Positions 11,598 through 64,000 of a DNA stretch of 64,000 nt are shown piece after piece. Source of the stretch: Apostichopus japonicus (taxonomy: Eukaryota > Echinodermata > Holothuroidea > Aspidochirotida > Stichopodidae); the NCBI RefSeq assembly GCF_037975245.1, contig NC_092568.1:15213501-15277500 (forward strand). Direction: 5' to 3'. The position numbers and the translations under genes were made by a program. Numbering within the stretch: the first letter of the stretch is position 1; each line of letters begins with the position of its first letter. The notes under the pieces were generated by a model. It was not told the origin of the DNA. It did not search any database and saw only the letters and a program-made list of their open reading frames with translations.

Positions 11598-13303
11598 GTG
11601 AGTTGTGACAGAAAAGTTCTGTCATGTATGGCAGAAAACTACGTGGAAGAATGTCCTGTCGTTCTCCATTTCCCGGTAGTAGCCAGAGCTTGAAAGGCCA
11701 ACAAAGTGGTTGGAAGGCTTCAACTACCAGCGCATAAACTGCCTGACAAAAGTACAGGTGATGGCACTCCTTCAAATACTAGTGCAGATGAAATATTAAA
11801 AAACAAAACAACATTGAGAATAAACTTTTGGATGGGTTTATGGAGTCGAGGAAACTAATATTTTCATTTTTATGTGACCCATTTTATTGAGACAATGAAG
11901 ATAGTACCTACCATCTCGTGCAGTGTGAGGATCATGGCTTTCATTTTATTTGCCAGCAGTCAACCACCAACACCTTCCTTTCCTCTTAAGTTTAAATACC
12001 CTAAGAATAGGCTGCTTTAGTGTTATTGGATTATACAACTATTGGCAGGACTATCCAACAAATAGTCTAATATAAAATTCAAATGTCGTTTGCATAAGGA
12101 GACTGTTATGTGTGAGAGCTTTGAGGCAGCACAAACCACATGGTCACATGCTTTTCGTTTTTGCAGTCAATCGCTGAATACTGTATCATTGTGAAGTAGG
12201 TGTGGTTGCCCTTTTTCACACTGAAGGTATGGCAATTCTCCAAGTCAAGTCAATTTGCCCCAACCCTCCCCAAACCCACAAACCCATAGCTACAGTACAA
12301 GTATGTTATCAATACTAGTCTACAGTGAATCTCATTGAATGATACTAATGTCTGTAGGTGTATCCCAAGATAGGTCTATGTATGTATATTAGTTAAGTTA
12401 ATATGGTTTGCCTAAGGTATTGTCAGGCAACTGGAATAAGTGAGAGTGTGAAGGTACATGTAGCACACACCATATTGCTTGGTGTGAAGCTTTGCCACAT
12501 ACTCTTTACTGTTTCTGTTAGTGGCTTAATAATACTTCATAATACTTAAGGTTTACACTGGGGGAATATATCTAATAGATCATTAGACTATACTGTATAT
12601 GATAGGCAATTGGCCTAAGGTATTCTCATGCAACTGGAATAAGTGAGAGTGTGAAGGCAGCACACACCATATTGCTTGGTGTGAAGCTCTGCCACATACT
12701 CTTTACTGTTTCTGTTAGTGGCTTAATAATACTTCATAATACCTAAGGTCTACACTGGGGGCATATATATAATAGATCAGTAGACTATACTGTATATGAT
12801 AGGCAATTGGCTTAAAGGTATATGGACAGATAGCAATTTTGCTATGAATGTATTGCTTATGTATGTCCGATCATATTCTCAATATAAACTCTTTAAAAAT
12901 TTGCTCTAGTTTTTGAGAAATTAAGGATTAATTACTCAGATTAACGAAAAATAAACGCCTGAAAGCACGTTTCAAAAATTTGACTTCTGACACGATATGA
13001 CGTAGAATCGAGAAGGGATAAGAGCATGCGTATATGGGGCACACGATGGGAAAACTCCGGATGTTTACATTGAGTCATCGAACTGGTATATATTGTGTAT
13101 CAATCTATACCCAAAGCACGTAATCGTTACCATTTCGTTCGTTGACAAATTTGTTTTCGTACATCCTTATTCGTTTATTCTCAACGCTGTTTAAAAGAGA
13201 ATTAATTTGTTTACATTCTTATTCTGTATGACTACATCGTATTCAATTTTATTTTGGGAAATACTGTTCAAAATCTTAAGTTTGGAGAGAGTTTGGAGTA
13301 AGA

Positions 13304-13371
13304 ATGCCGCGGCGTTGTAAAGTAGGAGGTTGCAGTAACACTAACAGTGGAAATATAAGCCTATATACGTA
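13304..13371 (+). pseudogene. 5' end of a THAP-domain gene
   Basis: ATG at 13304 opens a frame reading MPRRCKVGGCSNTNSGNISL then YT. This matches the start of THAP zinc fingers: Met-Pro, basic pair, Cys-x4-Cys, Asn-rich loop, then a hydrophobic Leu/Phe-Tyr/Phe strand. The rest of the C2CH module (the later Cys-x2-His and the AVPTIF tail) is missing. Reading past about 13371 runs into sequence antisense to the next entry. It sits about 490 bp inside the left end of the transposon and is probably what remains of its transposase gene. Confidence 0.6.
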
Positions 13372-13378
13372 TTCTCAC

Positions 13379-13617
13379 CAGTCAGTATTCAACAGACGCC
13401 GTGGATTTTCATGGCTGTCAGGTTCACCTTCCGAGTCTGTGGTGCTTTTACTTTCATCGGCTTCTGGCTGAAATTGATATGGCCTAATTTCCTCTTGGTT
13501 CGGAATTTCGTATTCCAAAGAGCTTTCTTCCTCACTTGCTGTCCCCGTTTCGTCGTCCGAAACCTCTGGACTGGAAATTTCGGGTTGTTTTGAAGCTTCC
13601 ATTTTCGAGGTTACCAA
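13379..13617 (-). pseudogene. First exon of a P2X7 C-terminal (ballast)-like protein
   Basis: Minus-strand frame from ATG at 13617 (a second ATG at 13602, MEASKQPE, may be the real start). It is highly acidic (SDDETGTASEEESSLEYE), then RPYQFQPEADES, then RRLLNTDW. PYxFEP- and NTDWC-type words are familiar from the many invertebrate proteins annotated P2X purinoceptor 7-like, which carry only the cysteine-rich cytosolic domain. A good donor (G|GTGAGA) lies at 13378-13373, right after NTDW. The following exon is absent. It lies 250 bp inside the right end of the TTAA element. Confidence 0.6.
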
Positions 13618-15022
13618 GCGAAATCAACGTTAAATGATAGTGCGCAGAACTTCACATTTAACATACGGTCTGCGTCTCTCGATACTACGTCACAACAAAA
13701 TCAATACGTAATGAGGTGGTTATCAATTCTTACTTTTGTGAAGCTCAAACTTTCCCGATTTTTTCACTTTTTAAAATCGAATTTCAAAGGTTGATGGAAT
13801 ATGTGAAAAGTAGATGTAATTTGCTATTAAATAAAGTAAAGTTGTAGCTACCTGTCCATATACCTTTAAGGTATTGTCATACAACTAGAATAAGTGAGAG
13901 TGTGAAGGCAGCACACACCATATTGCGTGGTGTGAAGCTTTGCCACATACTGTTTCTGTTAGTGGCTGAATAATACTTTGTAATACCAAAGGTCTACACT
14001 GGGGGCATATATCCAATAGATCAGTAGACTATACTGTATATGATAGGCAATTGGCCTAAGGTATTGTCATGCAACTGGAATAAGTGAGAGTGTGAAGGCA
14101 GCACACACCATATTGCTTGGTGTGAAGCTTTGCCACATACTCTTTACTGTTTCTGTTAGTGGCTTAATAATACTTTGTAATACCTAAGGTCTACACTGGG
14201 GGCATATATCTAATAGATCAGTAGACTATACTGTATATGATAGGCAATTGGCCTAAGGTATTGTCATGCAACTGGAATAAGTGAGAGTGTGAAGGCAGCA
14301 CACACCATATTGCTTGGTGTGAAGCTTTGCCACATACTCTTTACTGTTTCTGTTAGTGGCTTAATAATACTTCATAATACCTAAGGTCTACACTGGGGGC
14401 ATATATATAATAGATCAGTAGACTATACTGTATATGATAGGCAATTGGCTTAAGGTATTGTCATACAACTAGAATAAGTGAGAGTGTGAAGGCAGCACAC
14501 ACCATATTGCGTGGTGTGAAGCTTTGCCACATACTGTTTCTGTTAGTGGCTGAATAATACTTTGTAATACCAAAGGTCTACACTGGGGGCATATATCCAA
14601 TAGATCAGTAGAATATACTGTATATGATAGGCAATTGGCCTAAGGTATTGTCATGCAACTGGAATAAGTGAGAGTGTGAAGGTAGCACACACCATATTGC
14701 TTGATGTGAAGCTTTGCCACATACTCTTTACTGTTTCTGTTAGTGGCTTAATAATACTTTGTAATACCTAAGGTCTACACTGGGGGCATATATCTAATAG
14801 ATCAGTAGACTATACTGTATATGATAGGCAATTGGCTTAAGGTATTGTCATGCAACTGGAATAAGTGAGAGTGTGAAGGCAGCACACACCATATTGCTTG
14901 GTGTGAAGCTTTGCCATATACTCTTCACTGTTTCTGTTAGTGGCTTAATAATACTTTGTAATACTTGAGGTCTACACTGGGGGCATATATCTAATAGATC
15001 AGTAGACTATACTGTATATGAT

Positions 15023-15555
15023 ATGTATATGATACAATATAGGTTTCTCTTAGTTATGAGAGTGTTAGTATATTTCAAGATATCACTAGTGTGTAGAGTA
15101 AGCAATAAACCACCCATTCCCCCCCCCCCCCAACCCAGAACTGGCTATTGTACAGTAGGTTCATCAAATGGTACAAATGTCAGCAGGCCTACACAAAGAA
15201 TATCATAGGACATTTTAATGTGGTGTGCAATATCAGGTGACTTATTCGTGAGAGTGTGAAGGTATCACATACGGTCTAGTTAGGCTTCAGGCTTAGCCAC
15301 ATGCTTTTCATTTTGCAGTCAATGGCTGAAATATTGTATCATTGTGTAGATTTTGCACAGTATGTTGCCCTTTTTTCACATTGAAGGTATACATGTCAAT
15401 ATATTACATTTTCTTGTTGTGCAGTTTCTTTTCAAATGATCTATCCTTTTCTCCCCCTAAAAATTAAATTAAAAGCTGCCTCAGTTGTTGAAATGTTCTC
15501 CAGATATTTTCTGTATTGATAGAAATATCAGTTTTTGGTTCCAATGATAATTTGT
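15023..15555. other. Degenerate satellite flank and poly-C tract
   Basis: Contains a C-run of about 13 nt near 15120 and a highly diverged copy of the array region (15205-15400: GTGAGAGTGTGAAGG, CATGCTTTTC, TGCAGTCAATGGCTGAA) also seen at 12100-12240. No gene. Confidence 0.55.
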
Positions 15556-18198: not shown

Positions 18199-19410
18199 CA
18201 AATGAACTATATTTATATAAAAAGAGTGAGTCCATATGCGAACAAGGTACATGTCACGTTCCAAGTTAAAGGTTCACTTGCAAAGTTTCAAATTGATTTA
18301 GGGGCATCATGTAATGTGATACCTGAATTGTATGTCACTGAAAGCACCGAGACTAAAGAGTCAGACTACAAAAATCTGAGCATGTACAACAATAATCCAT
18401 CGTCAATTGTGGGGACTTGTAAATTGAGGTTGAGAAACATAAAGAATATGAAGTAATATTTTGTGCAGATGGTTGTTGTGCAAGGAAACAAGCAAATGCC
18501 ACTTCTTGGATCACGGGCATCACAACAAATGAAATTGATTAAAGTGTTGTATGAAAACATAGATAACAAACCAACTGAAAGTTCTGAAATTAAAGGGGAA
18601 GTAAAGCAAATTGAGAAAACTAACTTACCGCTGAAAAAAAGAAAATGTAATAAAAGTTTATCATGATGTATTCACAGGTCTAGGGTGTTAGCCAGGTGAA
18701 GTCCACCTGGAAACTGATCCTAATGTCACGTCAGTTATTATACCACCAAGACGTGTTCCAATATTTATAAAGACTAAGCTTAACGAGTAGCTGAAGCGAT
18801 TGGACAAAATTGCATGTGATAAAGAAGGTTGACAAACCTTCTGACTGGGTGTTAAGTCTGTTTGCATAACCAAACCCAGTGGTAAATGCGTGTTTGTATT
18901 AACCCACTAACATTAAATAATGCTCTAAAACGGGAACACTACTCGTTACCTATTTTCGAAGATATTCTGCCTAGTCTTAATGAGGTAAAGGTTTTTAGCA
19001 AATGTGATCTGAAAATGTTTTATCTAATGTGAGTTGGATGAAAATTCTCCCAAGTTGACTTCATTCCAAACCCCATGGGGAGTCACACGTATAAACGCAT
19101 GCCATTTGGAATCTCCCAAGCACCTGAGCTCTTCCAACAAGGCTAGATTAAAACCTTGAAGGGATTGAGGGTGTTCATATCATAGCTGACGACCTATTGG
19201 TCACTGACAAAGGTAAAACGGAAGCCGAAGCAGACAAGGATCATAACCGAACACATGACTAAGCTGCTTGAAAGAGGGAGAGAGCGATCTATCAAGTCCA
19301 ACAGAGATAAGTTTAAATTTAAGTGCAAAGAAATCCACTTTATAGGGCATGTTGTTACAAAACATGGTCTCTAAGTCGACCCTAAGAAAGTCGAGCCAAT
19401 CATTGATATG
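18199..19410 (+). pseudogene. Gypsy protease and reverse transcriptase remnant
   Basis: The protease starts HVTFQVKGSLAKFQIDLGAS, where LGAS stands for the D-T/S-G-A active-site loop, and continues NVIPELYV; the frame closes at 18456. RT words follow in broken frames: VIIPPRRVP (about 18735), KMF (about 19010), MPFGISQAPELFQ (about 19100), IADDLLV (about 19180, the catalytic YxDD position) and KEIHFIGHVVTKHGL (about 19327). Many stops and indels. The family normally processes and copies the element RNA in virus-like particles; this copy cannot. Confidence 0.87.
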
Positions 19411-20193
19411 CCTAAACCGACTGACATCGCAGCAGTACAACGGTTCGTTGGAATGGTGAAAAACTTGTCTAAGTTCCTTCCAAGCTTATCGGACACGTGC
19501 AAACCGATTCGTCGTCTAACACATAAGGACGCGAAATGGAGCTGGGGACAAGACCAAGACGCAGCATTCAACGGGGTGAAGCTTAGTGTCAGCAGCACAC
19601 CGGTGCTGCAGTACTTTGATCCGCAAAGCGAAACTGAAGGTCAGGGAGACGCATCAGAAAAAATGGACTTGATACTCACAAATCGAGAAAGAACTTCTTG
19701 CGTTAATCTCCGGTTTGGTGCGAAACCACCAATTCACCTACGGACGCAAGATAAAGCTTTGGACATATCGAGCACAAGCCATTGGTTCCAATCCCTAAGA
19801 AACAAATCACGACTTCCCCAAAGCGCCTCCAACGGCTACTTCTTTAGAAGTCTGGTGCAGTATAATGCCGACACTCTGTACAAGCCGGGAAAGGAAATGT
19901 ATCTCGCTGATACATTATCGCAAGCCTTCCTCCAGAATGAGGAAAGACCCGCAGTGGAAGTCGAGACAGAAAGTGTGAACATTATAGACTTCCTTCCGGT
20001 GTCGGAAGCAACTCGCAAGCAAATCCAGGAGTCGACCAACGGAGACCCCGTCTGTCAGAATCTGAAACGATTCATTACAGAGGCTGGGCATAATACAACA
20101 GGAACTAGCCCATACATACAAATTCGCGATGAGTTTCCATCTAAGATGGTATCAAATTCAAAACACAGCGATGTGTCATTCCTACACCTCTGA
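19408..20193 (+). pseudogene. Gypsy RT connection / RNase H region, longest open pol segment
   Basis: 261 codons stay open. The N-terminal half is the usual RT thumb-to-RNase H linker: MPKPTDIAAVQRFVGMVKNL, then KFLPSLSDTCKPIRRLTHKD and WSWGQDQDAAFNGVK. The RNase H region is shortened and scrambled: after PVLQYFDP the sequence jumps towards NADTLYKPGKEMYLADTLSQ, a conserved word that normally follows RNase H, so most catalytic acids are gone. The C-terminal part (ESTNGDPVCQNLK) leads into the integrase zinc finger. Confidence 0.85.
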
Positions 20194-21251
20194 GAAGAGA
20201 CATTAAAGCAAAATTTCACAACGCACACTCTGGTATCAAAAGTACGTTGAAGAGTGTGAGAGATACGGTTTATTGGCCAGGTATGAGTAAAGAAGTAAAG
20301 ACTATGTTGAACAGTGCATTATCTGTAACAAATACCGCACTCAGCAATCCAGAGAACAATTGTTCAGCCATGACATACCAGGTCCCCAGGGAGAAAACGT
20401 TGGTGTCGATATTTTTTACCATCGATGGTACAGATTATCTCTGTATTGTGGACTACTTTTCGGACCACTTCGAAACTTACATACTCTTAAACAAGAAAGA
20501 TACGCCGGCAGTGATCAAAATCGTGAGACGATATTCACTACACATGGTACACCTGTTACTGTACAGTCAGACAACGAACCACCATTTTCGTCCCGCGAGT
20601 TCTCTGATTTTGCGCAATCGTATCAGTTCGACCACGTAACCAGTTCGCCGCTCTTGCCACAAAGCAATGGTAAAGTCGAAAACGCGATAAAGACAGCAAG
20701 AAATTGATCAAGAAAGCGAAGAAGGATAAGCAAGACATATATCTCAGCTTGCTTAGCTGGAGGAATACTCCTTCTGAGAGTCTGCCGCCATCACCACGTG
20801 TATCAGTCGAAGGACTAGAACAGTTATACCTACTTCCAAGAAGTTTCTCACACATTAACTAAGGATTCAAGCAGAAGAAAAACATGAGAAATGAAAAGCA
20901 AGCGCGATATTACAATCACAGTGCTAAGCTTCTTCCAGAACTGAACAAAGGGCAAACAGTACGCGTTCAACCATCAGGACGAGAGAAAGTATGGAAAAAA
21001 CTAGCGATGAAGAACTCGTCAACAATTGCTCCTACAAAGTTATCATAGAAGATGGACGTGAATTCCGTCGTAATCGTAAACATTTACGCCCTACCAAAGG
21101 AACACTGATTTACAGACGCGAGCTGTTCTATGACGTAATGATTCACAAATCGCACCGCCAACCAGCGTCGATTGCAGCAACAACAATGCAGCACGCAACG
21201 AGAGTTCAAGCACAGCACAAGAACACGAACCAGAACCAGAACCATATTTAA
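20190..21251 (+). pseudogene. Gypsy integrase remnant
   Basis: HHCC zinc finger: KFHNAHSGIKSTLKSVRDT then VYWPGM and EQCIICNKYR in a second frame. Core: VGVDIF (first Asp), VQSDNEPPFSSREF (second Asp) and PQSNGKVENAIKTA (catalytic Glu), spread over two frames between 20247 and 20707. A third piece after 20707 holds LLSWRNTPSESLPPSP and the basic C-terminal segment (KGQTVRV, RRNRKHLRPT) ending at 21251. The catalytic triad is visible but the frame is broken. Confidence 0.87.
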
Positions 21252-41103: not shown

Positions 41104-42470
41104 CAGGTTAATTGGCAGGTTGGTCCCACATTTTCTGTGCTCATTAGGGCCTATGTGTTGATGTTCAGTGGGAACAGACATGGTAGTTGCTTCTGCCCAG
41201 TATGTACTTCATATAAAGCTGCCACCCATTTTAGGAATACTAACTGAGTAAAACTAAGCAGATTTTGTTGAACACTTCTGTAGGGGCATAAAACAAGAAG
41301 TGCAAGGCCAGGAATTATCCTTTTAACCAAACAGCAGGGTGAGCAGGTTGGTCCCACATTTTTGGTGCTCATTTGATCCTACCGTAAATGAAAGTGGTAA
41401 CTGACAATACAGTTGCTTCCCAGTATATAACATCTAGCTGCTATACCCCTGTTTATTACTTCTAATTAAGTTAAGCTTATCACATTTGTTAAAAAAATTC
41501 TTTGGGAATACAAAACAGGAAGCAAGCCCAGGAACTACCCTTAAAACTATTAACAGCAGGTTGACAGGTTCCATGGTCCCACATTTTCTGTTCTTATGAG
41601 ATCCTACTATGAATGTTTGTGGAAACTAAAAACACAGCTGCTTCTATACCCAGTATATATGAAGCTGCTACCCCTGTTATAAAACAAGAAGTGCAAGGCC
41701 AGGAATTCTCCATTTTACCCAACAGCAGGTTGGTCCCACATTTTTGGTGCTCATTTGATCCTACAGTAAATGAAAGTGTTAACTGACAATACAGTTGCTT
41801 CCCAGTATATAATACATATCAAGCTGCTATACCCCTGTTAAGTACTACTAATTAAGTTAAGCTTAGCACATTTGTTAAAAAATTCTGTGGGAATACAAAA
41901 AGTAAGTGCAAGTCCAGAAACTACCCTTTAAAGTTATTAACAGCAGGTTGACAGGTTCGGTGGTCCCACATTTTCTGTTCTTATTAGATCCTACTGTAAA
42001 TGTTTGTGGAAACTAAAAACACAGCTGCTTCTACCCAGTATATATGAAGCTGCTACCCCTGTTATAAAACAAGAAGTGCAAGGCCAGGAATTCTCCATTT
42101 TACCCAACAGCAGGTTGGTCCAACATTTTTGGTGCTCATTTGATCCTACAGTAAATGAAAGTGTTAACTGACAATACAGTTGCTTCCCAGTATATAATAC
42201 ATATCAAGCTGCTATACCCCTGTTAAGTACTACTAATTAAGTTAAGCCTAGCACATTTGTTAAAAAAATTCTGTGGGAATACAAAACAGATAGCGATCGA
42301 AAGTTCAGGAACTACCCTTAAAACTATTAACAGCAGGTTGTCAGGTTCCATGGTTCCACATTTTCTGTTCTTATTAGATCGTACTGTAAATGTTTGTGGA
42401 AACTGAAAACACAGCAGCTTCTACCCAGTGTACAAAAAAGCTGCCACCCCTGTTAGGACTATACAAATTT

Positions 42471-52727: not shown

Positions 52728-54447
52728 GCATAAAACAAGAAATGCAAGGCCAGGAATTATCCTTTTAACCAAACAGCAGGGTGAGCAGGTTGGTCCCACA
52801 TTTTTGGTGCTCATTTGATCCTACCGTAAATGAAAGTGGTAACTGACAATACAGTTGCTTCCCAGTATATAACATCTAGCTGCTATACCCCTGTTTATTA
52901 CTTCTAATTAAGTTAAGCTTATCACTTTTGTTAAAAAAATTCTTTGGGAATACAAAACAGGAAGCAAGCCCAGGTACTACCCTTAAAACTATTAACAGCA
53001 GGTTGACAGGTTCCATGGTCCCACATTTTCTGTTCTTATGAGATCCTACTATAAATGTTTGTGGAAACTAAAAACACAGCTGCTTCTACCCAGTATATAT
53101 GAAGCTGCTACCCCTGTTATAAAACAAAAAGTGCAAGGCCAGGAATTCTCCATTTTACCCAACAGCAGGTTGGTCCCACATTTTTGGTGCTCATTTGATC
53201 CTACAGTAAATGAAAGTGTTAACTGACAATACAGTTGCTTCCCAGTATATAATACATATCAAGCTGCTATACCCCTGTTAAGTACTACTAATTAAGTTAA
53301 GCTTAGCACATTTGTTAAAAAACTTCTGTGGGAATACAAAACAGATAGCGATCAAAAGTTCAGGAACTACCCTTAAAACTATTAACAGCAGGTTGTCAGG
53401 TTCCATGGTTCCATATTTTCTGTTCTTATTAGATCCTACTGTAAATGTTTGTTGAAACTGAAAAGACAGCTGCTTCTACCCATGCAGTATGGCTGCCACC
53501 CCTGTTAGGACTATACTAAATGAGTAAAACTAAGTAGATACTAATTATAAAACAATTTGGTGGGGATATAAAACTTGAATTGCAAGTTAGCCATGATTTA
53601 TCCTTTTAACCAACAGCAGGTTGGTCCCACATTTTCTGTGCTCATTGAAGCCTATACTCTAAATGTACAGTAAGTGGTAAGAGACAACACAGTTGCTTCT
53701 GCCCAGTATGAAATATAAAAAGCTGTCATCCTTATTGAGGACTACTTATCGAAAAAAAACTTAAAACCCATTCTGTGGGTATATAAAACCAGGCCAGGAA
53801 TTATATTATTAACTATATATATATATATATATACACACACAGCAGGTTAATTGGCAGGTTGGTCCCACATTTTCTGTGCTCATTAGGGCCTATGTGTTGA
53901 TGTTAGTGGACACAGACATAGTAGTTGCTTCTGCCAAGTGTGTAGTACATCTAAAGCTGCCAACCATGTTAGGAATATGAACTGAGTAAAACTAAGCAGA
54001 TTTTGTTGAACACTTCTATAGGGGTATAAAACAAGAAATGCAAGGCCAGGAATTATCTTTTTAATCAAAGAGCAGGTTGGTCCGACATTTTTGGCAGATT
54101 TTATTTGTAAAACAATTTGGCTGTGCTAATTATTTGAGCCTGCTGTTAGTGTTAGTTAAAACTGAAAACATACTGTAGTTGCTTCTGCCCAGTATGTTAC
54201 ACTTTTGAAGTTGTCCCCCCCTGTTTAAGACTACTTAATGAGAAAAACTATTTTGTAAAACAATTCTGTGGGATATAGAACATGAAGTGCAGGGCTAGGA
54301 ATTATCCTTTTTAACCAAACAACAGGTTGGTCCCACATATTGTGTGCTCATTTGAGCCTAAACTGTAAATGGAAGTGGTAACTGACGACACTGTTGTTTC
54401 TGTCCAGTGGTAATACATGTCAAGCTCTACTAATTCCTTACTAGACA
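52728..54447. repeat. Diverged satellite array, second half (about 8 units)
   Basis: Resumes the word order of the 39.06-43.2 kb array at the exact break point. 52728-53126 is almost identical to 41279-41690, and 53126-53510 resembles 41690-42460 with units deleted. Confidence 0.93.
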
Positions 54448-55300: not shown

Positions 55301-58300
55301 ATCACAAGATTTTATAATGCTGGAACTGGCAGACAATCATACAGTCAATGCAACTTACTGTAGTTAATACCTTTTAAGATGCTTAACATAGTAATATGGA
55401 GAAGAAATTGAACATTGAGATTATAAGTGTGAATACATGGAGGGGGGGGGCAGAAGTCACATGATAGTATTTGACTTGTTCTGTTTGTCTGTGTGGATCC
55501 ACGCTTTGAATAACTTCCATAGGGTCTATTTCATTGCATAAGTTTTTTATGCAGGATCATTGGAAAAAGGTTACAGGTAGTTGTGACAAACATTTAACAT
55601 ACCTTTCTGTGAATTTCCCTCCAAATAATTCAGCTCTCAGTATGCCCTCTGATGAATATTTATCCATTTAAAACACGTTTTAAAATTATTACCAGAAATA
55701 TCCTAATCCTATATCAACAGATATATTAGTTTTTAACCCAATTTTCCTTAACTTTGGAGCATAAATTTGATTTATGTAGATGCAGGAACCCCCCTTTCTT
55801 TGAAATGAAGTGCTTACATCTAAAAAGTTCTACCAATTGGTATAATGCAAACTGACAATTAACATGTGGGACGGATCAAACAAAAGCAACATATGGTACA
55901 GTTGCATTATATGTTATTCTTTTCTACAGTTTTTCCCAACAACCCATCCTCCTTCAAGGGACTTTTTTAAACACATATTATGGATCTGTTCAATTACTGA
56001 TAGGTATCACTACAGAGAGGTAAGCAAAGTGAAAAAGGTGTATCTGGGGTTCTCGTGACTTTGGGGTTGGAGGTGACTATAGGGTCAGATCAAGGGTGTA
56101 AATTACTTCACAACCCCTCTGTAGGGCTGGATCCAGTGAATTGGGTGATGTTAACACCAGTTTAGATTGGTTGAAGTTTGAATCCTGAACTTTAAGATAG
56201 TTGCACATGTTCAGACTACTTCTAATAAATATTGCCAATTTGCTCAAATAATGAACAGGCAAGAGCCACTGCACCTCTTGTGCCATATTTAGTTTCATGA
56301 ACTCTTAATCAACTACATTGTAAATGATGAAAACCACCAATGGAAAGTTTCTCAAGTAGTATATATTGTAAATATGAGTATACAGACCATAACATACAGA
56401 CCTAATACAGACAATAAAATAAAGTTTTATGTGTGAAAAGTTAGAGCATGTGATCAAATTGTCTCTAATTTGCAAAAAAAAAGTTTAGAACTACTGTAAC
56501 AGATTGTGTATAATACATTAATACATGATACAAGTAACTATAAATGCTCACAAAATACTTGGTGTAGAATTTTTTTTCATCAGTGCATTCAGAAAAATGT
56601 CTATATGAAAGTAATTGTAATACAGTAATGCCTCCCCACCTGCGAGTTCTCAGGCATATCCGCTGCATGCCAGACCAGACCTGACGTTATTACAAGAACA
56701 TGCAGGCCTAAACTTATTGCATTTGCCTGAAGGAATAGCCAATGTATAGGTTCCATGCAATTATATAAGCCTATTTTTAGGCGTACGCTGGGTTATATAT
56801 GTATTGGTTGTGTACAAGGTCATGCCTAAATTTATGCTATAGCGTAATATTTGCTATTGACTTTCACACATGTGTAAAGTACACACCCTGTTGTAATGGT
56901 ACAAACTACACATGCAACAGCCAGTATAGGACCTAACTTCGAATACTGCAATGATAGTGTTTAGCTGTTCAGTTACTCACAACTTTTATTTTTTGTGACT
57001 GCAGTCACAAAAAATACAAGTTGTGAGATTCAAGTTATTAGGTCATGGTGGCTAGTGACACCTTCGTGAAATGTCATACCTCAAAGACAAAATGTTTGAA
57101 GTGGTGCTACAAAGGAAACTGCTCCCTGAGACCATTCACTTCCTCATTGGAGATCTGGCTAAAAACATAAATGCAAGTATCTTGCAGTTCATTTGACTTG
57201 CCAGCTACCACCAGCTAAAAACACCTGGTTACTGCCCGAGGGCTTTTCAATACTTCATTTGGCACACTCACTTTTCAGTTGTTATTGTTGTTGATCATAA
57301 TTACATCATGTGTTGATGTTCTAGTTGATGATCTAGAACCTTATGCATATATACTGTAGACCTTTTCACCTCTAGGAGCACTATATATCTGGAAGTTGCC
57401 TATGAATAAAAGCCAAGTGGCAACTCCCTTGAGACCCAGCATTAATGTACTGTATAGGAGTGTAAGAAATAGAAAACAATGTTATTTGCAAAACTAACAA
57501 ATATTCTACATTTCAGCTTAACATAACAGACATAACTGAAATCACTACAGAAGGAAACTAAGAGCATAGCTTATAAGCAGTATGCATGCTTAATACTTTT
57601 GAAGCAAAACAATGAAGCATAAACGAATACATATATAAAAAATATAGTAGTAACACCCTATTTCAAAGCAACAATTGGTGCTGGTTAAATAAACTATGAG
57701 AGTTAATGTACGTATGGTACAGTATGGCAGACTTGGCAGCTCAGTTTTTATTAAAAAAATGAGGCCGTAAGGCAAACATCTGTGTATACAGTGGAGGGGG
57801 GAGGGGATCATGGATCAGCCTAATGGGTTCACAAAATACTTCTATCAAGTTTTGAGGAAAAAACTTGTCCACTTAATAGTGATAATTATACTAGGCTAAA
57901 CTGGTTAGGCATCATCTGGAGTATGCAGTCCAGGCTTGGAAGTTGGAACCCATATTTTCTAAGGATAACTGTAAGGAAGTATAGGCCTATACTTGAGAAG
58001 GTCCATGCAGCCTCTGAAGATTGAGGGCTACTTAAAAAGTATATACTCTAGCTATGATGATTACTAAATATTTCCTAAAGTGTGTTCCTTAAATTATAGT
58101 TTAGGAGGTACCAGCTAGCTGCTGAATCTCACCACAGCGGAGCTTAGGAATAGGAGCTGGTTATAAGGACGTGGTGACTTGATTCAGGTTTTCGAGATGT
58201 TTATGGTTTTGACATGTTTAATTGCTAATAGTTGTTGTACCAAACCTCATACTCTTGAACCCCAGAAATTACCAAATAGGATTAATATTCTAATAGGGTT

Positions 58301-59459
58301 ATATACTGTACTGTATGAGTGAATGCCAATGAAGTGGTTTGTCTGAGAAAGTTAATTGCACTTGCTGCAAGTACTGTGAATGAGTTTAAGAATGATTTGA
58401 CAAGTGCTTTAAGCATTGGATAATTCAGGTCTGACTTTTTGTGGCTTCGGTTAATTTGCTAGAGCTCCCATAGGGTCCTTGATATGGGGACTTGATTGTT
58501 CCTCTTGACTCTAATTTTAACTAAACTATTCTACTGTAATTCTAGCCTATTAATGTAGGCCTAAGTGTAACAGTAACAGACACTTGCCTATTCAATACAT
58601 AAATAAGTAATACCTTAACTTACTTATAAGCTACTGTAGCCTAAAGTGCTCGATCATAATTGGCATAATTGTTAAACATATGCTGTTTGTCTTCCCGTTC
58701 AAAATGCAGAGTAGTTGAGATCGTGCTTAATATTTGTTTCTGCTGATAATTAATGTTTAAGTTAATGAAACCCCTGTTTGAGTTTGATATACAATAATGT
58801 TGTTAAAATGTGTACTTTTAACATGGAGTTTTAATTCCAAATAATGTGCCAGTGCTAGAATACAAATCTTTCAAGCTGTTACTAATGACATTACATGTTC
58901 ACCTGTCCCGACGGCTGCGTATAATAGAGTGTATCTATAAAACTCCAAAGGAAACGTTAACAGACTAATAGGGACTATTGGATTATATTGAGTGATAGTG
59001 GCCACAAATTGAGAACACTTCTGAAAATTGTACAGCATATCCTATTATCATATTCCTATTTAATGACACATATCTTGAAGTTGTATTTTAATAGTACTTA
59101 CAAGTACTTGAGTACTTATCCTACAGTAAATACTAATAGTATATGCACTGTTGCACTGCAGGAAGTAAGTATTCGAAGACTTATTTTGAATACTTAGTGA
59201 GTACTGAATGAATACATTCAAATTTGGTAAGGGAAGATGGTTAAAGCCCCCTAGCCACCCATCTCCCCCCACCATCTTCTCAAAGTCATTAAAACATTGC
59301 TCGAATGCAGAATATGCTTGATCATGTGCAATATTTAAGTGCAGCCTAACATTTGTCAATAAGGTAAATTTTTGACTTAACATATGTCACTTTTAATATA
59401 TACGTGGAGATAATTAGTTTTATCAAAAGCACTATATAACCACCCAAAAAAACTTGAAA
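55301..59459. other. Unassigned non-coding stretch
   Basis: AT-rich. A 52-bp palindrome lies at 56976-57027. A 41-codon frame at 57071-57196 (MSYLKDKMFEVVLQRKLLPE...) is protein-like in composition but unsupported. No other features. Confidence 0.4.
56976..57027. repeat. Spacer-less 26+26 bp palindrome
   Basis: CTCACAACTTTTATTTTTTG... is mirrored by its reverse complement around a CTGCAG centre, with one mismatch in 26 pairs. Confidence 0.93.
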
Positions 59460-59826
59460 TTACTTTCTGGTACATCTTTTTGACTCTTGTTTCATCATTC
59501 TGGATTTCTCAAGCCGATTCTTATTGTGTATTTTGTTTTTTATGTCTTTCCAAGATTTGTTCTTTAGTAGTCCTCTACTTCGTTTCTTCAGAAGCTCTCC
59601 AACCATTTTACCGGGGGTTGTTTTGGTCTTTAGGAATTGTTTAATCTCAGGCTGTGCAAATAAGAAATCTTCTTCTTGTTTGGTCCATCTGTTGTACGAT
59701 CTTGAATTTTTTGTCTCCTATCCCTTCTTTGGTTGCACTGGTTCCTCAAGTGCACTGTCTTCATCCGAATCTGGAGAACCTCTGTCTTCATCTTGCTGTG
59801 ATTCATCGTCATCGTCATCGTCATCG

Positions 59827-59916
<90 letters not shown>

Positions 59917-59923
59917 CCATCAC

Positions 59924-60006
<83 letters not shown>

Positions 60007-61779
60007 CTATCGCTATCAGAGTCATGATCTGATTCATCACTACCATCATCACCTTCATCTTCCCCATCTGTATCTACTTCCTCCTATGAATTGATGGATA
60101 TTTCGTCTAGAGACTCTCCACAATGTTGATGCACTTGGCCTTTCTCAGTGAGGCACAACAATTTGCTCATCTTAGCCAGCAACATTGTCTCCTGTGGTAG
60201 CCTGTAATACTCACGATGAACAGCAATATTGTGACCCATATGGTTAGCTAGTTGCTCTAGCTCATGATCTTTCAACCCAAGAAGTTGTGACAAAGTGGCA
60301 ATGTGTTTCCGCAGTTTCGTACAACGGAGGTTTTCTGGATGCTTCAATCCAGCTGCATCAGCTAGTTCCCTTATTGTGTCCCCGGCCCTTAAAGGAGTGG
60401 TAGCATCTAGACTGACCCTCGCAAATACATACTTTGCTTTGTGTTTCTGTTCTTTGTGATAGACAACAATCATCTCTATGCTCTCCTTTGTGTTTTCAGT
60501 GAGCAGTATTGGTACACCTCTACCTCTTTTGCCCCTTACCATCAGCACATCTAACCGCTTCATTGCGAGTTTCTCAGACAGAGATAGGGCCTTTGCTACC
60601 TCATCTTGAACTGGTTGTTTGTTCTTCATTTGTGTACAGAAGTCATCAATTAGTAGGACCTCTACCTCTCGAGGTCTTCGTCGATTGAAGAACACTAGCT
60701 GAGCCAGTGTAAGTCGTGCAAGTTCTCTGTAGTTTGATGATGTCATCCCTTCACTTTTAATTTTGGTTTTTACTGCCTTCTCCATTGTCAGTAAGTGTTG
60801 GTTGAACTTCAGACAGTCCTCAGTAAGTGGCAGAAGCTGTGGTTTCTTCCATGTTAATTCATTCCTTTGTCTTAGAGCAGATGCTGTTACTTTAACATTC
60901 CAGTCACTGTCTCTTAGTAAAAGGAAGTTATCCACTTCTGTCACTTTCTCCGGTTGTTTTGACTTTAAGTATTTGCTCCGCAGAGACACTGCTAAGTCTT
61001 TAATAGCAAATCCAATCTTCAAAGCACTGGAATAACTTCCGTGAACTTGAGACTGCTCGTTATATCGACTTATTTTGCGGGTGGCCTCAACTTAGCACTT
61101 TGGCAATAGTTCTCATCCTTTCTCTGCAAGTGTCTCCTTTCTTGGATGAGTTACTTTTATCAAGGTGGTTTTGGCCCACATCAACAATATCTCTGTCAGA
61201 TTTAGCAATCAGAGAGATGTCATCATTGATCATCTGGTCCAAGACTTTTTGATCTGCTAATTTTCTGGCATTGCAGCTTTTCTTGTGAACCCAGAGACTG
61301 CTGACATTGTAATATCCAAAACAGTCACTGCAAGGTACAAACTGATCAATATCAGTGCTCGCTCCATGCTGTGGGCGCTTTGAGACCATGAGCTCTCTAG
61401 CCTCTCCCTTGTATACTTTTTGGTTATGTTCATGATTACCTAACTTTTTAATTTTCCTCCATACAGGATTACCTTTTGACTTTTTCTTTCTTGGGCTGCT
61501 TTAATCTTTCACCATTGCTTCAGCTACTAGGAGTTCCTCGGGGTGGATTCGTCTGAGGTGGCGGAAAAGTTTGGTCTGCCTTTCTCCACAGTAGAGGCAA
61601 AATGCATGTTGGTCCCACTTTCTTTTTCCTCTTTTCATGGTGCAAGCAGATGCCACATAAGGAACGTTGTCTTGTTCAGATGCTTTGCTTGTTGATGGCA
61701 GGTCTTTTTCACTACTAGGTTCTTCCCACAAGCTTGCATCACTTTCTTCTGTGCTTTCTTCACCCTCAAGACAGCTAGA
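59460..61779 (-). pseudogene. Zinc-finger / tyrosine-recombinase-like / SANT-like protein, main exon
   Basis: Begins after an excellent acceptor (polypyrimidine then TTGCCCAG) at 61780. Order: C2H2-like finger (FCLYCGERQTKLFRHLRRIH), linker, second finger (FVPCSDCFGYYNVSSLWVHK KSC), then an open 312-codon stretch 61022-60084. In that stretch, counting from its Met, R116 (RRPREVEVL), R238 (KLRKHIAT), H264 (MGH) and Y273 (REYYRL) have the spacing of the tyrosine-recombinase box I, R, H and nucleophile Tyr. Then an acidic Asp tract, and a C-terminal segment with RWTKQEEDF..., TPGKMVG and NKSWKDIKNKI resembling SANT/Myb. Breaks: TAA 61503-61501, a 1-nt frameshift near 61090, TAG 60086-60084, TAG 59720-59718; final TAA 59462-59460. 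Function unknown; a transposon-derived recombinase (Crypton-like) is one possibility. Confidence 0.75.
59805..60012. repeat. (TCA)n / (GAT)n trinucleotide microsatellite encoding poly-Asp
   Basis: Roughly 65 near-perfect triplets. On the minus strand, in the frame of the recombinase-like gene, it encodes an Asp run with a few Ser and Gly. Frames giving poly-Ser, poly-His or poly-Met are shadows. Confidence 0.96.
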
Positions 61780-63355
61780 CTGGGCAACAAAGAATTTAAA
61801 AAAAAGTGAGATAAAATGTACCTTACAAAAGCTGTGTTGGTATGAATTCAGACTTAGTAAACCTATTCAGAATGGTACTCAAATATGTTCACATCATCTG
61901 CAGTAGCTATACTTCAACAAGTAGGAATTGCAGTTGGCAGATTTAAAGGCCATCTGTGTTGGCCCCAAATTTTAGCATGCTAACAGTGCTTAAAAGTTTC
62001 TAGAAGTACTTTTCCAGAAGTTTTCACTCTTCAAAATACTTGTTAGGTCTTAGAAAACTTCACATTCGATAATTGAATGTTTCTGAGGGGAAATGTAACC
62101 ATACAGTTTATAGTAAACTTAGTAAAGATATGTTATCATTTGTTAACATTTGACAAATGTGACCATGCATATTTGAATTCAAGCATCTTTTTGGGCAATA
62201 CAAAAGGCAGCTAATACTCTGAACTTGCTGTTCTGCTGGGGAAGAGCATATAGTCAAGTATACCAGATACCCTATGTTCAGAAACTACAAAGCATTGCCC
62301 CAAAGAAGACTTTCAATTCTCTTCTGCATAGACTCCATATATGCTTGTACTCATGATGGCTGCAGCAAACATAGTCAAAATTTCACTGCCTTATAGTAAT
62401 ATTAGTTGAAATTATGCAATCACCATAGTGTAAAGTTCCGTGACATGAATGCATTGGTCTATGCCCTATAAGCGATTGTGGGCATCTGAATGCATGCGCG
62501 TGACTCAAAGATTGTCTTGAGTTTTTACTGTGTTATAATTAGGCAATATTTAACAATGAATTGGTTATTATATTTCTCAAATTTGTAAGTTTTGACACAG
62601 AGAAAATATGTGCAAGTTTATGAAATGTTGCAACTTAACAAGCATAGAGAGTGCTCAAGTAGCATCTGGGATTCTCCATGTGCATGCTCAAATTTCTTAT
62701 GTACAGTCCATTAGATTTTCTGTTCAACTTGAAAGATCTGCTTTATTGTGCCTAATTGTAACACGCTCTAGCTAGGAAAGTTTTATGATTACGTAATCGA
62801 CCCACCACAGTGGTAAAATGACCTCAGGCTCTACAGTTAGCCTGCATAGCTTCTTAACACCATGACATCTTTGTGTAAACACTGTGTGGAAATATGTCCT
62901 TATACATGTCTACAGTAGTAATATCATACAACGTTTAGACAAAGACCCTCATACAAGAAAAAATACGTGGCAGGCATTGCAGACTAATTGGTAAAAGAAA
63001 GGTCATATTAATACCAAGGCAGGTTGATAATGTAATCTTAAATTTTTTGTGGTAGCGTGCTATACTTGGGGTCGATACAGCAGACCTTTAAGTAGCAATA
63101 CATGGCTGCATCATGTTTAGTTGAGCTGATACTGAATGTAGTTCATCAAAGGACATAGATGACTAGGCGCAAGCTTGTCAGTAGTGAATGGAGTTATTAA
63201 TGATTCCACATTCTTCAACATCAAAAGGATGTAATTGATATGTCACAAATGATTCAATCATCACTACAGAAACAACATTAGGTACTATTAGGTTTTGTAA
63301 AATTGCTGTAAGCTTATTGTGTGCAGTGTCCAGTTCTAAATACTTCATTACTAAC
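61780..63355 (-). other. Intron of the recombinase-like gene
   Basis: Bounded by GTTAGT on the 5' side and TTGCCCAG on the 3' side (minus strand). No repeats or inserted genes recognised. Confidence 0.5.
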
Positions 63356-63471
63356 CATTTTTTGATCAGTAGAATCTGCTGCGTCATCTATTTCTTGATC
63401 CATGTCAAGAAATCGTTTCCCCTTTGTTGTTTCAACTTGTTCTTCTGTAGAGTCATCACCAGGAGAGTTTT
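63356..63471 (-). pseudogene. Upstream acidic exon of the recombinase-like gene
   Basis: Acceptor TGCCTTTGTAG precedes, donor ATG|GTTAGT follows. The frame reads NSPGDDSTEEQVETTKGKRF, LDMDQEIDDAADSTDQKM. It ends in phase 0, and the main exon at 61779 starts in phase 0 (SSCLEGEESTEESD), so the two join into one acidic N-terminus. The intervening intron is 61780-63355. Further 5' exons, if any, lie beyond 63471 and were not found before the window end. Confidence 0.58.
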
Positions 63472-64000
63472 CTACAAAGGCAAATGTAATTAATACTATG
63501 AAAGACAAATATTCACCATTAAAGAGATATCAGATTAGTTTCTACATACGAAACAGCTGGTTAAACATTATATTTTGGTTCATAAAACAATTTGAAAAAA
63601 GTACATATTTAATCTGGCTATAATGAAACATGAGATTATCACTACATTCATATCATATAACACATTTTATTGCGTTGTCTGTTCATGGGGGATAAGAATG
63701 GTTCCTTACAATGTAATTTTGAATTTCACACATCTCCTTTAACCAATTTAAAAATTGATAGCTTTGAAAAACATAGGTGCATGCACATTTTGGAAATACT
63801 AGACTAGGTCAGTGTTTGAAGTAGCATAATCTGCCATCTGAGCACCATCAATAAAAAAAAAATATCTAAGGACAGGGAGAGACCTCCCCTTTGACCCCTT
63901 CCCAGGACAGCAATCAGTGCACTCAAACATAAATCCAGGGGAAAAACTGATGAGTACCACCAACTCTGGACTAAACAGTAGATAATGGTAAATACTGTGA
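63472..64000. other. Unassigned window end
   Basis: AT-rich sequence with no supported gene; may hold upstream intron or promoter of the recombinase-like gene. Confidence 0.4.

Follow-up and report, generated by a model that had tools for sequence, protein, structure and literature searches.

What kind of gene lies, in a broken state, on the minus strand between positions 59,460 and 63,471 of the window, that is, of the whole stretch of 64,000 nucleotides of the sea cucumber Apostichopus japonicus analysed here (contig NC_092568.1, positions 15,213,501 to 15,277,500)? The initial annotation had described a tyrosine recombinase joined to two zinc fingers, a poly-Asp tract and a SANT-like tail with a W-x-x-EE segment, and had seen in it a transposon-derived or domesticated family. 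The observation, coordinates and strand included, is confirmed, and its interpretation is partly supported. Here, I propose that the feature is probably the 3' half of a decayed, large tyrosine recombinase (YR) DNA transposon that encodes a KMT5A/SETD8-like SET domain N-terminally in the same multi-exon gene. On its sequence, I read the element as a putative Crypton-like, microsatellite-targeting YR transposon with a histone writer of its own; the SET domain and an IRE1-like kinase had been missed because they lie outside the window.

A SET domain and a kinase upstream of the recombinase

The window copy sits on contig C8 and its twin on C17. Beyond the window, and on the strand of the gene, exons of a KMT5A/SETD8-like SET domain and of an IRE1-like kinase precede it upstream (stretch L052, with L053 as its C17 counterpart). 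The SET exons score 32.3 bits in C8 and 26.4 and 36.5 bits in C17, the cut-off of Pfam SET (PF00856) being 22.4 bits; the C17 piece, the one for which nearest kin were examined, has KMT5A/SETD8 as its best PDB matches (E 6.7e-11). The first kinase exon reaches 50.9 bits, for a Pkinase cut-off of 31.7 bits, and its best PDB matches are IRE1 (E 1.7e-14) and RNase L (E 2e-10). An element of the L030 family likewise has, on the 5' side of its exon array, a frame that scores 29.7 bits against Pfam SET. Seven further upstream stretches were read: a SET domain above cut-off is found in each of L058, L059 and L060; L054 holds kinase pieces, one with E 6.9e-7 but below the Pkinase cut-off, the other unmatched by Pfam and 39% identical to that of the window family; in L055-L057 neither SET nor kinase occurs in the 10-13 kb read upstream, and the genome search described below placed a SET domain 11.5-32 kb upstream in their clade. 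PF00856 is thus above its cut-off in seven of seven SET pieces, from six copies. The YDYG motif is kept in all five aligned SET pieces, and the Asn-His motif in three of them. In L059/L027, a single uninterrupted frame of 1498 codons leads from the C-terminal half of the SET domain through acidic repeats and fingers to the YR.

The order of the parts, seen on one strand in several families, is SET, then in some families the IRE1-like kinase, acidic exons or repeats, two zinc fingers, YR, an acidic tract and the SANT-like tail. Between kinase and YR, L054 (3443-4762, on C19, in gene orientation) carries an array of the short acidic peptide ADTKNQSDPLPDQMDAETVPSGS; its construction differs from that of the L030-family exon array.

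Along the same line, the genome (671,581,487 bases, 35 contigs) was searched with the YR frame, which gave 168 candidates, 120 of them scored and listed as a lower bound and merged into at least 112 loci, and with the C17 SET exon, which gave at least 142 matches (150 of 176 candidates scored). A SET match lies within 40 kb upstream and on the same strand at 69 of the 112 YR loci, as against one upstream on the opposite strand, two downstream on the same strand and none downstream on the opposite one; when SET positions were rotated along each contig, the mean was 0.9 and the maximum 16 in 1,000. The distance between SET and YR ranges from 2.1 to 32 kb, and at 11 of the 112 loci an open frame of identical length is listed for both matches. 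The kinase exon is matched 18 times, at 17 places, with SET 1.7-6.4 kb upstream at 11 of them, YR 6-19 kb downstream at five, and neither at a further five (C16).

Some SET matches have no YR partner, for instance the eight on C20, where YR matches are lacking altogether. On C20, C14, C4 and C19 there are weaker SET matches, mostly at 33-38% identity and many with internal TGA and TAG stops, which perhaps belong to a second multi-copy SET-bearing family. On C13, SET and kinase matches recur at a spacing of 40,027 bases (9229162, 9269189 and 9309216) with no YR match nearby; the series may have arisen by tandem duplication, or may represent a relative whose recombinase has diverged.

Dispersed copies and the ends of one family

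Many of the YR loci have open frames of 620-1498 codons. One of them, L008 on C19, has the architecture of the window gene from finger 1 to tail in a single open frame of 747 codons, so that the joining of fingers and SANT-like tail to the YR in one protein, first described on a broken copy, is borne out by an intact one. Copies L011-L015, which are spread over C9, C13 and C16, share 99.8-100% identity across 3,978 bases, and L030-L034 are 98.3-99.4% identical over the bases read. L012 and L013 are 99.7% identical across all 9,971 bases read, and the ends of this pair were therefore not reached. Copies so nearly identical and yet so dispersed point to recent mobility; the multi-copy, transposon-derived nature of the family thus stands, with its at least 112 loci, while the suggestion of a domesticated recombinase is not supported.

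Ends common to several copies, for which the initial annotation had asked, are known in one family, L030: both ends in copies A31 (C3) and A33 (C16), and the 3' end in a third copy, A30. Read in contiguous pieces, A31 and A33 resemble each other throughout an interval bounded 5' by a TG run and 3' by TATG and a TG run; A30 has the same 3' border, and the likeness of its 3' flank to those of A31 and A33 is confined to the TG run. I take this as a probable insertion of the family into TG runs, at least one of which would lie inside a dispersed repeat. Incidentally, a dispersed repeat with a TG run, present in L020 (3446-3651) and in the flanks of A31 and A33, is seemingly a site at which these elements land. 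Within its borders A31 measures 17,582 bases and A33 16,483 bases, for a family element of about 17 kb. A31 has one unit more than A33 in a tandem array with a 1.07-kb unit, and three units of the A31 array contain an exon-like stretch of 108 bases encoding 36 residues; this length is divisible by three, so that every unit would extend the protein in frame, provided that splicing follows the prediction.

Neither long terminal repeats nor long terminal inverted repeats were found in the L030 family. An 11-bp subterminal inverted motif, TTCGAGGACAT / TTGGAGGACAT, has its first base at position 17 from either end, counting inward, and recurs at 50 and 44. The ends have five motif matches, compared with three in 11 of 5,000 random inner pairs and more than three in none, a test that flatters the motif, which was picked after the ends had been seen; the unbiased best 11-base inverted match of the ends has one mismatch and is equalled in 25 of 200 pairs of inner stretches drawn at random, a comparison that took no account of the equal spacing from the ends.

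These borders bear on the best of the alternatives, according to which the genes are an expanded host family of KMT5A-like methyltransferases that captured a Crypton recombinase once, as a domesticated fusion, and spread by segmental duplication. Up to 65 KMT5A-like genes have been reported from Hydractinia, and 61 from S. purpuratus, mostly with an N-terminal SET domain, the longer ones with similar C-terminal ends and some activated in embryos; they were read as novel KMT5A genes and interpreted as an expansion of methyltransferases acting on lysine 20 of histone H4 (H4K20) (PMC10368294, 2023; this and the articles below are cited from partial texts). Purifying selection would also suit a host family. 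Of ten pairs compared, L012 and L016 have a ratio of non-silent to silent substitution rates (dN/dS) of 0.125 over 730 codons, with a proportion of differing silent sites (pS) of 0.71; the ratio is 0.57 over 332 codons between the window copy and its C17 twin, both decayed, and in the eight other pairs silent sites are saturated (pS 0.78-0.84, with the corresponding non-silent proportion, pN, at 0.26-0.48). The window copy and its twin, moreover, have some 13-15 kb in common, in pieces without proven ends. Against a host family, the close identity of A31 and A33 stops at TG runs on both sides, and the last 284 bases of the L030 family are present nine times in the genome, at 97-100% identity, spread over six contigs and in each case close to a YR locus. 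The active-site residues of the YR, as shown below, are kept, unlike those of the domesticated DUF3504 domains, which derive from a Crypton YR (PMC3212892). A host family is on these grounds unlikely.

The recombinase and the damaged window copy

The YR frame of the window copy (60087..61091, 335 codons, minus strand like every part of the gene given here) is recognised through Pfam PF00589 (Phage_integrase, E 4.7e-4), through an alignment of ten sequences from nine families (A1), and through its own-genome matches. The active-site residues R139 (60675..60677), K188 (60528..60530), R261 (60309..60311), H287 (60231..60233) and Y296 (60204..60206) are invariant in all ten sequences of A1. In this numbering R139, E142, R261, H287 and Y296 are the former R116, E119, R238, H264 and Y273, with K188 as an added catalytic Lys; free variation of the two Arg, the His and the Tyr among paralogues, which would have spoken against a recombinase, is thus not what the alignment holds. 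Among 30 copies fetched, K188, R261 and H287 are present in 30 and R139 in 29, Y296 being outside this count. The PF00589 match, taken with at least 120 own-genome matches, the intact frame of L008 among them, makes the likeness more than chance.

Upstream of the YR, an acidic exon-like stretch (63356..63471), with borders TAG/AAAAC and AAAATG/GTTAG, is kept in the C17 copy; its splicing is predicted. The frame at 61504..61866 contains the C2H2-like zinc finger 1 (CLYC...HLRRIH, 61543..61599), and the frame at 61090..61500 zinc finger 2 (CSDC...HKKSC, 61273..61332); counterparts of both are seen by eye in L008, L012, L027 and L030, and the Pfam scan of the window gave no model above its own cut-off for finger 1. 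Downstream of the YR follow a poly-Asp tract of (GAT)n (59803..60006), with a shorter acidic tract at the equivalent place in L008, and, after an in-frame stop, the tail with its W-x-x-EE (59463..59717). The tail is SANT/Myb-like by eye and resembles, again by eye, the tails of L008, L012, the L030-family element and L060/L035; Pfam has no SANT or Myb match for the tails of the window copy, L035 or L031. That the window copy is broken is clear from a frame lost at about 61090 and from three stops, namely a disabling in-frame TAA between the fingers (61503-61501), a TAG at 60086-60084 and a TAG at 59720-59718.

Position 59460 is the end of the tail frame and not of the element, for the similarity to the C17 twin, 95-98% in pieces on the minus strand, extends over 58219..64000 by sequence comparison, the end of the element being unproven; beyond 58219 it stops, and the C17 side enters an apparent long interspersed nuclear element (LINE). 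A match of the YR DNA on the opposite strand, 58 bases at 98% (query 69-126), lies at C17:17928414-17928471 (L003). Elsewhere in the window, frames at 8-1897 and 19375-20639 look by eye like pieces of LINE-like endonuclease/reverse transcriptase and gypsy-like pol, and long-period tandem repeats, with periods of 197 and about 387 bases, occupy 12410-15023, 41342-42455 and 52784-53482, with one unit family present at both 41.3 and 52.8 kb.

Several results weigh against the reading of the window gene as part of a YR transposon with its own SET domain. Judged by sequence profile alone the YR assignment is weak: at 20.4 bits the window frame falls below the curated cut-off of PF00589 (27.1), as does, weakly matched, the 830-codon frame of L030; the model is found at E<=0.1 in two of ten family members (best 1.6e-5), and at E<=0.01 neither in the L008 frame nor in the examined part of L027. 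The usual residue of YRs at the HxxR position is His; here it is Thr in 27 and Ser in three of 30 copies, a departure from the known pattern. The A1 profile finds no PDB chain at E<=1, and hhalign of A1 against the single sequences of Cre and lambda Int is not significant, nor is anything for a kinase as negative control. By sequence, the window protein has one PDB match (E 0.36), taken as chance, and single-sequence structure prediction of its YR failed, with a mean predicted local distance difference test score (pLDDT) of 34.8. On the side of the upstream domains, the second kinase exon scores 28.5 bits, below the Pkinase cut-off, and the third is unmatched; E31 and L058 have Asn-Asp instead of Asn-His, and their SET domains may therefore be inactive. 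No SET match lies near 43 of the 112 YR loci; nine of these carry the 3' end of the L030 family, in two members of which SET was seen by hand, and the remainder are unexplained or short fragments. Silent sites are saturated in most comparisons, and the C8/C17 pair taken alone could be a segmental duplication. The ends and the target of the window family itself were not found: the search for its 3' end met no TG/CA run of at least five units in positions 40000-64000 of the window, and the break between L008 and L020 gave no clean end. In the L030 family, A31 and A33 agree at 80% in the first 54 bases of their 3' flanks, and both flanks of A31 are similar to a dispersed repeat next to L020 that contains a TG run; the target may therefore be a dispersed repeat, or the border of A31 and A33 may lie a few dozen bases further out.

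A possible mechanism, and known systems

According to a second alternative, the element is an ordinary CryptonV-like Crypton of animals, and SET and kinase are accidental cargo of a few families. Animal Cryptons, like the L030 family, have no terminal repeats, and they have no C-terminal domain (PMC3212892); some families of CryptonV, a name found in Repbase lists, are reported to insert in microsatellites (PMC8869645). Yet SET lies upstream of 58 of the 74 YR loci with frames of at least 480 codons, and also upstream of YRs only 24% identical to that of the window (C6:17744782 and C12:33233781), and in L059/L027 SET and YR are in one reading frame, which makes mere cargo improbable, a little more so than the host family. 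DUF3504 is absent from the Pfam matches of ten members at E<=0.1, the presence of its model in the Pfam set used being unverified.

Far less probable is a giant endogenous DNA virus, or an element resembling a virus, with an integrase that would target microsatellites as those of nimaviruses target repeats. Some families do reach 32 kb from SET to YR; the 17.6-kb element, however, has no frame of at least 150 codons besides the YR gene, and nine other frames of at least 70 codons are blank in Pfam at E<=0.1. The window protein has no relative in phages or IMG/VR, where A1 gave 33 pattern matches and none confirmed, and its best E in PHROGs is 0.058. A DIRS/Ngaro retrotransposon is thought unlikely, no reverse transcriptase being found in L030-family frames (those of at least 150 codons, and Pfam on the nine), from which short exons could escape.

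If the element is instead a YR transposon with its own histone writer, its exons would be spliced into one protein, the YR of which would bind the subterminal repeats; those at equal distance from the ends are candidate binding sites. The YR might then recombine the two TG borders and release a circle, which would insert into another TG run, the common TG letters providing the identical overlap for strand exchange. YR enzymes require a short identical overlap in both partners; it would be provided by TG at the target as well as at the two borders, and this would account for the choice of target and for an insertion without separate target duplication. The SET domain may mark histones of the element or of its target, with H4K20 as the residue suggested by KMT5A, and such a mark would favour expression, replication-linked copying or access, with fingers and SANT-like tail as candidate binders of DNA or chromatin.

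A broader proposition, towards which I lean slightly, is that a whole lineage of animal YR transposons encodes a recombinase-fused histone methyltransferase, the mark being used in transposition or in escape from silencing, and that the embryo-activated KMT5A-like sets of Hydractinia and sea urchin are transposon rather than host genes. If so, a mobile element would itself write chromatin marks instead of merely being their target, and how transposons choose and open target chromatin would become testable with one protein. What was published as a burst of H4K20 methyltransferase genes in the early embryo would be transposon expression, and KMT5A-like annotations in invertebrates may be transposons.

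No earlier description was found of a mobile element combining a YR with a histone-marking domain, sometimes with a kinase: a SET domain and a YR joined in a transposon appear in none of the titles and abstract openings among the matches listed, from a literature without most subscription journals and Repbase Reports, in which a prior mention is possible. The term tyrosine recombinase occurs zero times in the main text of PMC10368294.

To sum up the likenesses to known systems, as far as the partial sources go, the sea cucumber element shares with Crypton and CryptonV a YR without a reverse transcriptase seen, the lack of long terminal inverted repeats, multiple copies and, in one family here, insertion in microsatellites; it differs in adding SET, kinase, zinc fingers, acidic exon arrays and a SANT-like tail, at about 17 kb in the family read. 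The integrases of nimaviruses likewise pair a YR with a zinc-binding domain, of C2H2 type, and target repeat sequences, telomeres or ribosomal DNA in their case, from within viral genomes (PMC10871703). With IRE1 and RNase L the likeness is that of the first kinase exon to its best PDB matches, and with KMT5A/SETD8/PR-Set7 that of the SET exon; here, in contrast, the SET domain is N-terminal in a transposon protein and its motif is NHG, NHA or ND, that of KMT5A being NHS. SETMAR, a single host gene born of one fusion, also joins a SET domain to a transposase, whereas the present fusion lies inside the mobile element itself. Lastly, the novel predicted KMT5A genes of Hydractinia and Strongylocentrotus have in common with the element an N-terminal KMT5A-like SET domain, long proteins, a homologous C-terminal part and dozens of copies; likened by description and not by sequence, they are, I think, elements of this kind.

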